NCBI GenBank assembly: GCA_958295775.1
Contig: CATQHC010000009.1
Span: 372,001 to 436,000 of the forward strand
Length of the DNA: 64,000 bases
From: Chloroflexota bacterium
GTDB lineage: Bacteria; Chloroflexota; UBA11872; VXOZ01
Direction: 5' to 3'
Made by a program: the position numbers and the translations under genes. Under the pieces are notes generated by a model. It ran no database searches, had not been told where the DNA came from, and saw only the letters and a list, made by a program, of their open reading frames with translations. This document shows, in pieces, positions 1,365-13,728 of the stretch (the stretch's first letter is position 1; each line of letters opens with the position of its first letter).

Positions 1365-1437
1365 ACCGCTGCTAGACTCAAGCCAAGGTCAGGTTTTCAG
1401 CCACTGGGATGCGCCAATTACCACGGGAGGTTTCGCG

Positions 1438-1869
1438 ATGCAGTCGGTAGTAATCAGAAGCCACGAGCGGCTTCAGCACGTCGTCGCCACGGACACACAC
1501 GCGCTGGTCGCAGACGAGCCGCCGCCTGAGGGAGAAGGTCTCGGACCCAATCCCTATGAACTCCTGCTGGCCGCGCTCGGCGCCTGAACGGCAATGACGC
1601 TGCGGCTGTATGCCGACAGGAAAGAGTGGGATCTCCGAGCGGTCAAGGTAGAACTCAGCCACGAGCGCGTGCACGCCCGCGACTGCGCCGAGTGCGAAGA
1701 CCAGAGCAAGTCCAAGATCGACCTCATCCGCCGCTACATTGTGGTGACCGGCGCGCTCGACGCAGCCCAGCGCAAGCGGCTCCTGCAGATTGCCGAACGC
1801 TGCCCCGTGCATCGCACGCTGGACGGCGGCCCGACAATCCTGACGGAGTTAGATGTAGTGTCGGGCTAA
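1438..1869 (+). CDS. OsmC-family peroxidase with predicted selenocysteine at the active site
   Basis: The reading frame from ATG 1438 (GGGAGG seven bases upstream) is interrupted once, by TGA at 1585-1587, and continues to the stop at 1869, giving 143 residues. Both halves match one OsmC-like protein: NPYELLLAALGA before the TGA, and TAMTLRLYADRK, DCAEC and ERCPVHRTL after it. In relatives the residue at the TGA is the peroxidatic cysteine of the GACTAMTLR motif, so the TGA reads as Sec50. The resolving-type cysteine is Cys122. OsmC proteins reduce organic hydroperoxides in the cytoplasm. A SECIS-like hairpin lies 3' of the TGA. A sequencing error or nonsense mutation is the alternative, but the exact position, the hairpin and two similar genes in the window argue against it. 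Confidence 0.85.
1600..1619 (+). promoter_or_regulatory. Predicted bacterial SECIS element of the OsmC gene
   Basis: Bases 1600-1602 pair with 1617-1619 and 1603-1606 pair with 1612-1615, with one bulged A at 1616 and a five-base loop UGUAU (1607-1611). The loop starts 20 bases after the TGA and has G at its second position followed by U, as SelB-binding bacterial SECIS elements usually do. The element lies within the coding region, as expected for bacteria. Folding was done by eye. Confidence 0.7.
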
Positions 1870-5829: not shown

Positions 5830-6802
5830 GCTAAGGTGTTGCCATGGGAAAGAGATACACGCATTTTACCATTGAAGAGCGGTGTGAAGTGGCCAGACTT
5901 CTCGCCGCGGGGCAGTCGCAGCGGAAAATTGCTACAGCTCTGGATCGCGCGCCATCGACCATTACGCGGGAGGTAATACGCAATGGGTCCGGGAAGCAGG
6001 GGTATCAGGCGAGATATGCCCAGGAACAGGCGTTGGCGCGGCGTTGGGGCGGCGGCAAGCTGGAGCGAGATGCTGCCTTGCGGGAGGTGGTGCTGGGATA
6101 CTTGCGAGCTGGCTGGTCGCCGGAGCAGGTATCCGGACGCTTGGCGCGGGACGCCAGCGGCCCGGTCATCTCCCACGAGACCATCTATCGCTTTATCTAC
6201 GCGCAAATGGCACGCACCAAGGACTACACGTGGCGGCACTACCTGCCGCGGGGCAAGTCCAAACGCGGCTGGCGGGGCGCAGAGGCGGCAGTCCGGCCTC
6301 GTTCATTGCCCAGCGCCGACCGCTGGCAGAACGGCCCCAGACGGCGGCAGACCGCCAATCCCCCGGTCATTGGGAGGTGGACCTGATGCTCTTTCGCACC
6401 TACGGCCAAGCCGTCTTGACCTTGCACGAGCGCCACTCGCGCTTGCTCATCGCCACGCGACCGCCCGGCAAGGCCGCCGAACCTATCGCCACTGCCATGC
6501 ACGACCTGTTCGCTTCCTTGCCTCCAGAGTGGCGTCAAACCGCCACCTTCGACAACGGCACCGAGTTCGCGCGCCACTACCGCCTCCATGACCTGGGGAT
6601 GCAGACCTTCTTCTGCGACACCCACTCTCCCTGGCAAAAAGGCGGCATCGAAAATGCTATCGGGCGCCTGCGGCGCGGGCTGCCGCGCAAGACCGATCTG
6701 GCGACCGTAACCGAGGAACGCTTTGCGCAACTCGTGCAGGCCTACAACCACACCCCGCGCAAGTGTCTTGACTACCAAACGCCAGCAGAAGTATTCATGA
6801 AC

Positions 6803-6828
6803 CAAGTGTTGCACTTGAAATGTGAGTC
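6803..6828 (-). repeat. Right inverted repeat of the IS30 element
   Basis: Ends in GTGAGTC at 6822-6828. The transposase frame runs through it and stops only at 6853, in the flank. Confidence 0.75.
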
Positions 6829-6852
6829 CATCTTCCCGCCTGCGCGGGCATG
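6829..6852. repeat. Palindromic repeat, type A copy
   Basis: CTTCCCGCCTGCGCGGGCATGACGGAG resembles the element at 1974. It directly abuts the right end of the insertion sequence. Confidence 0.55.
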
Positions 6853-6945
6853 ACGGAGTGTGAACGCCACTATGCCGGTTCGATTACTAGAATGACGGTC
6901 AATGCGCTACCCTGATCGTATAAAAGGGCTAAGAGTCCAATTGTG

Positions 6946-13491: not shown

Positions 13492-13728
13492 ATGGCCGAG
13501 AAGCAGCGGCTCAGCATCGAATACTGCACTTCGTGAGGCTATCTCCCGAAAGCCGTCAGTTTGACGGAGCAAATACTGGATAAATACGAACAGAACCTGG
13601 CAAGCCTCGAGCTCATCCCCTCCGGCGGCGGCGCCTTCGAGGTGACCCTCAACAACAACGTCATCTTCTCCAAACACCAAGAAGGCCGCTTCCCCGAACA
13701 CGACGAGGTGCTCAAACACCTGGGATAG
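13492..13728 (+). CDS. SelW/Rdx-family selenoprotein
   Basis: ATG 13492 follows AAAAGGAGCACATCC. After 14 codons the frame meets TGA at 13534-13536, then runs 63 more sense codons to TAG at 13728, for 78 residues with Sec15. The start IEYCTS, then Sec, then GYLPKAVSL, is the SelW CxxU pattern on the first strand-loop-helix of a thioredoxin-like fold. Downstream, GGGAFEVTLNNNVIFSKHQEGRFPE matches the SelW/SelT Rdx fold (family motif GxFEV...L..SK...G.FP). A hairpin follows the TGA at the expected distance. Rdx proteins are small cytoplasmic thiol-redox proteins of uncertain substrate. A long open frame runs into this gene from upstream, but it is a shadow of the transporter ATPase. Confidence 0.9.
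13553..13567 (+). promoter_or_regulatory. Predicted bacterial SECIS element of the SelW gene
   Basis: Five perfect base pairs, CCGUC with GACGG, enclose the loop AGUUU (13558-13562). The loop begins 22 bases after the TGA and has GU at its second and third positions, like the loop of the OsmC element. Confidence 0.7.

Follow-up and report, generated by a model that had tools for sequence, protein, structure and literature searches.

The locus analysed here raises the question of whether an OsmC-like gene interrupted by an in-frame TGA codon is a functional selenoprotein gene or a broken one, and, if the former, what kind of enzyme it would encode. The gene lies in a 64,000-nucleotide stretch of DNA, hereafter the window, taken from a 3.4 Mb Chloroflexota genome in nine contigs, and the metagenome-assembled genomes of its genus (Chloroflexi or Chloroflexota records) are ones that we take, from their sample names, to be probably sponge-associated. 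With high confidence, we read the gene as encoding a predicted single-domain OsmC-like selenoprotein, a putative redox enzyme of a second Sec subfamily, in which a downstream hairpin and SelB would direct selenocysteine (Sec) to residue 50 (Table 1).

Table 1. Features of the OsmC-like locus, in window coordinates
Feature	Position	Strand	Remark
Shine-Dalgarno-like GGGAGG	1425..1430	+	7 nt upstream of the ATG; read directly
OsmC-like gene, predicted selenoprotein	1438..1869	+	143 residues, Sec at position 50
UGA codon, predicted to be read as selenocysteine (Sec50)	1585..1587	+	aligned with the invariant Cys
Putative bacterial SECIS hairpin	1600..1619	+	1600-1606 paired with 1612-1615 and 1617-1619
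Second conserved Cys codon (Cys122, motif CPVHRTL)	1801..1803	+	presumed resolving residue

The Interrupted Gene and the Maintenance of Its TGA

The codon for residue 50 is the one internal TGA of the reading frame, and under the standard code it breaks the gene into two pieces (1312-1587 and 1594-1869), as the initial annotation had anticipated. The readthrough product is an OsmC domain (PF02566; 68.5 bits against a cut-off of 27.5), and a purine-rich stretch resembling GGAG or AGGAG precedes the equivalent ATG in the congeners shown. This is the one PF02566 gene found in the host genome, and therefore no second OsmC-family gene that might serve as a back-up was detected there.

The TGA had been placed at the conserved cysteine of the family, and the alignment bears this out: the codon falls on the reactive Cys that is invariant in all 57 Cys homologues (at least 37% identity), and across 121 homologues the position holds TGC in 53, TGT in 26, and TGA in 42 (a few of the latter being the same gene from two collections), with TAA or TAG found in none of the 121. 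Ranked by coding potential on both flanks, it comes first among the 400 TGAs of the window with an open frame on either side. It is kept in five of the six genomes of the genus, the sixth (G002) having TGC, and it recurs in two further families of the same phylum (G296 and G332) and in the record HRbin23. A search of 95 Methylomirabilota/Rokubacteria genomes returned TGA in 33 of the 33 matches listed (L136-L165), suggesting, from those matches, that Sec forms of OsmC may be phylum-wide there. Among five Sec congeners, the C-terminal half of the gene has accumulated 119, 52, and 351 changes at codon positions 1, 2, and 3, respectively, and this third-position excess downstream of the TGA therefore marks the second half as maintained coding sequence and not debris; synonymous codon identity, in turn, peaks at codons 48-60. 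Together with the hairpin and machinery described below, we consider the selenocysteine reading to be close to the firmest that sequence evidence allows.

The Downstream Hairpin

The hairpin carries a UGUAU loop (1607-1611) and a bulged A (A1616) and lies 19 nt past the TGA, inside the limits given for bacterial SECIS elements, namely a loop of 3-9 nt, an early G, and a distance of 16-37 nt from the UGA (PMC13188914). By itself, it is statistically weak: folded singly in 56 nt, it does not exceed shuffles in strength (z 0.27), and against synonymous recodings its energy reaches p 0.04 and its model stem p 0.23. Its uninterrupted stem has just 4 bp. Rfam, run over this region, returned no SECIS family. 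Since single-sequence folding gave no support, the relatives were compared. Of the 38 Sec homologues, 32 have a bSECIS-type stem of 6 bp or longer, whereas among the 57 Cys homologues 3 do (p = 7e-16, Fisher), and the mean local folding energy is -10.8 kcal/mol in the former versus -4.0 kcal/mol in the latter. The stem also covaries, with 16 cells in which both sides have changed, a value reached by 0 of 500 shuffles and compared with at most 5 in slid controls, in a test run on a specified structure and on the CTG class of sequences; the Fisher and shuffle values overstate independence, because the sequences are related. At its two central pairs, where G-C, C-G, and U-A replace one another, every cell (100%) is paired, and one double change is seen at a further covarying pair, the third (columns 18/32). 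The codon of the loop-forming Leu, which precedes a Tyr, is CTG in all 30 Sec forms that have the Leu, compared with two of eight such Cys forms. RNAalifold returned no structure for a 23-sequence alignment, presumably because the paired positions of the CTG class are offset by one base from those of the ATG class; specifying the structure and confining the test to the CTG class overcame this. The UGUAU hairpin of the initial annotation thus finds its counterpart in a stem that is conserved and covarying in the Sec homologues, and it becomes convincing as a putative SECIS element solely through this comparison with relatives.

Selenocysteine Machinery and the Cysteine Congener

The expectation that Sec machinery would be encoded elsewhere in the genome proved correct: selA (571 bits), selB (359 bits), and selD (377 bits) all score above their curated thresholds, and tRNA-Sec (selC; 67 bits) is over its gathering threshold. 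Both SelB and tRNA-Sec occur in five of the six genomes of the genus, the exception (G005), which lacks both, being 69% complete; tRNA-Sec is also present in G101, G102, G296, and G332. The selD gene of the host (L001, G000:C9:447099-448028) has an in-frame TGA of its own near the N-terminus (LAACAGUAGK) and is probably itself a selenoprotein gene. The window, moreover, holds a gene of the SelT/SelW/SelH (Rdx) family at 13492-13728 (+), with a product beginning MAEKQRLSIEYCTSUGYLPKAV and a TGA at 13534-13536 within a CxxU motif; it scores above the cut-offs of NF041051 (95.9 versus 88) and TIGR02174 (70.8 versus 34.2) and is probably the second selenoprotein gene of the window.

The congener G002 (L082, L031) has TGC in place of TGA, yet it possesses both SelB and tRNA-Sec, and its hairpin is half decayed: the lower stem is lost, and it folds no more stably than synonymous recodings do (z -0.01). 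With moderate support, the tree places G002 within the Sec forms, and a replacement of Sec by Cys without loss of the machinery is therefore likely, although not certain. Given that a Cys form exists alongside SelB and tRNA-Sec, Sec is evidently not indispensable to this protein. As to whether the Sec forms have a single origin or several, the tree needs seven label changes, two of which are forced by well-supported branches.

Position within the OsmC Superfamily

Sec forms of OsmC-like proteins had been said to be predicted in marine metagenomes, and indeed they are, in the Sargasso Sea and GOS data, although with a UxxT motif (PMC1088965, PMC2398784) that assigns them to a different subfamily from the window protein. 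On the basis of this common motif, we infer that the Sargasso sequences fall in the NCBIfam family OsmC_like_Se (NF041052), which shares with the window protein the OsmC superfamily domain, the Sec at the first conserved Cys, and an occurrence in Chloroflexota. Members of NF041052 over its cut-off in the same phylum have TGA in 25 of 26 cases, and those read mostly carry F-U-L-L-T or a close variant; they differ from the window protein in this motif, in the context of the second Cys, and in the sequence of the SECIS element. The window subfamily is instead marked by U-T-x-[MI]-T ... CPVHRTL, being U-T-A-M-T in the window protein, with Thr at +4 in all 38 Sec homologues and Met, Ile, Val, or Leu at +3. 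The over-cut-off members of NF041052 form a clade separate from the window subfamily (SH-aLRT 99), and from motif and clade separation, therefore, the OsmC superfamily contains two predicted Sec subfamilies, with the window protein belonging to the second.

A description of this subfamily was not found in the literature searched, an absence that is no proof of novelty, and the same literature held nothing specific on OsmC selenoproteins in Methylomirabilota. A passage in a review does cite a Methylomirabilota metagenome-assembled genome with 63 predicted selenoproteins.

Fold and Active Site

The predicted structure is an OsmC fold (pLDDT 82), and a fold search against the PDB puts 1ml8, the nearest single-domain fold, first (E 2.4e-07, with 22% identity over the fold alignment), which we take to be E. 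coli YhfA and which is a Cys form, unlike the window protein. Sequence comparison, by contrast, singles out the OsmC domain of 9wo1 (E 7.6e-35) as the nearest solved relative, and a far closer one than 1ml8. The 9wo1 protein, a 400-residue 'Osmotically inducible protein C', shares the GACTAMTLR and CPVH motifs, but it has Cys for Sec, and its OsmC domain forms the C-terminal part of a longer chain, unlike the single domain encoded by the window gene. As a further comparison with the YhfA type, PRK10738 was matched by only one of 11 members.

Sec50 and Cys122 are both conserved as redox positions, and in this pairing, as in its fold, the protein resembles the Ohr/OsmC thiol peroxidases (1zb8/4xx2, 1nye). 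In E. coli OsmC, the aligned counterpart of Cys122 is the second Cys; all 38 Sec homologues and 54 of the 57 Cys homologues have the Cys-Pro motif to which Cys122 belongs. The thiol peroxidases differ in having a catalytic Arg and Glu, which in Ohr are Arg19 and Glu51 and serve to orient and activate the catalytic Cys (PMC5962072); in the window subfamily, when the OsmC proteins of E. coli and T. thermophilus are aligned with it, the equivalent positions hold neither Arg nor Glu, an absence common to the Sec forms and most Cys forms. Of the 38 Sec forms, 31 have Tyr at -10, and the column of the E. coli OsmC Arg holds no Arg. The subfamily may be more YhfA-like than Ohr/OsmC-peroxidase-like.

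As a working mechanism, a complex of SelB, GTP, and Sec-tRNA(Sec) would bind the hairpin downstream of the UGA, and Sec would be inserted at residue 50 in place of the reactive Cys, a step to which both the machinery and the hairpin point. The selenolate at position 50 could then attack an oxidant or a disulfide-type substrate, and Cys122 may resolve the intermediate to a selenenylsulfide that would in turn be reduced by cellular thiols.

Alternative Readings

That the TGA is a mutated or misread TGC or TGT, in a pseudogene or through an assembly error that leaves the protein short of full length, must be considered, as one base separates these codons and the window alone would be insufficient to exclude it; nevertheless, the recurrence of this TGA in five congeneric genomes and among the 33 listed Methylomirabilota matches, all from separate assemblies, the avoidance of TAA and TAG, the codon-level constraint on the downstream half, the covarying hairpin, and the presence of the Sec machinery render it extremely improbable. 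A suppressed, skipped, or reassigned UGA, decoded for instance as Trp or Cys, is just as improbable beside the covarying hairpin and a complete set of Sec genes, for the UGA aligns with Cys alone, and two other in-frame UGAs of the genome lie at the classical Sec positions of SelD and a SelW-like protein. It is likewise improbable, if not to the same degree, that the window protein belongs to the known OsmC_like_Se family with the UxxT motif of the Sargasso sequences: NF041052 is its best NCBIfam match, but the score (42.4 bits) falls well under the curated cut-off of 95, the motif is U-T-A-M-T and not U-L-L-T, and the clades are distinct.

A different kind of alternative, compatible with the selenocysteine reading, concerns function, the initial annotation having made the protein a peroxidase, and a faster one than its Cys form. 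A Sec-dependent enzyme reducing hydroperoxides in the manner of Ohr/OsmC would fit both the OsmC fold and the placing of the second Cys where the resolving Cys lies, and Sec generally raises peroxidase rates. Ohr and OsmC are themselves thiol peroxidases, whereas the YhfA subfamily, to which the best fold match points, is the one excepted from shown peroxidase activity (PMC4069020). The positions aligned with Arg19 and Glu51 are moreover occupied by other residues, and an activity of the window subfamily was not found in the literature searched; we accordingly regard the peroxidase assignment as possible, if rather doubtful, and the claim of greater speed as unsupported.

Returning to the preferred reading of a hairpin-directed OsmC-like selenoprotein, a broader version of it seems to us plausible, albeit tentative: the gene may represent an unmodelled second subfamily of OsmC-type selenoproteins, common across Methylomirabilota and sporadic in Chloroflexota, with a SECIS class of its own, a reversion to Cys in one species of the window's genus (G002) that has kept the Sec machinery, and Sec/Cys redox chemistry that dispenses with the Arg/Glu pair and hence would not be that of a classical organic hydroperoxide peroxidase.

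Significance

In the literature found, the OsmC-family selenoproteins are a few marine sequences that share one type of motif, and to these the second subfamily adds dozens of members, mostly from Methylomirabilota, that are missed by the NCBIfam selenoprotein model and whose genes are, therefore, probably split in public annotation. The genus additionally contains two naturally occurring counterparts, one Sec and one Cys form (81% identical, with the same upstream gene), with which to probe what Sec contributes to the OsmC fold, and which bears as well on why a lineage that has Sec machinery gives up Sec.

Genomic Neighbourhood

Upstream of the OsmC-like gene lies an AlkZ-like gene (96-1364), with 73 bases between the two, and on the other side a ceramidase-like gene (3515 to 2124) is oriented toward it; one or both of these neighbours adjoin the OsmC-like gene in the genus, in the contigs examined. 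A short palindromic repeat (ATTCCCGCTTTCGCGGGAAT) occupies 1970-2000, between the OsmC-like and ceramidase-like genes, and an Rfam match to FtrB at 1945-2017 was dismissed as a chance match on this repeat. Further along the window, a transposase-like gene (5844-6853, +) resembles the IS30 type by eye and seems to be divided between two frames (5844-6386 and 6044-6853).
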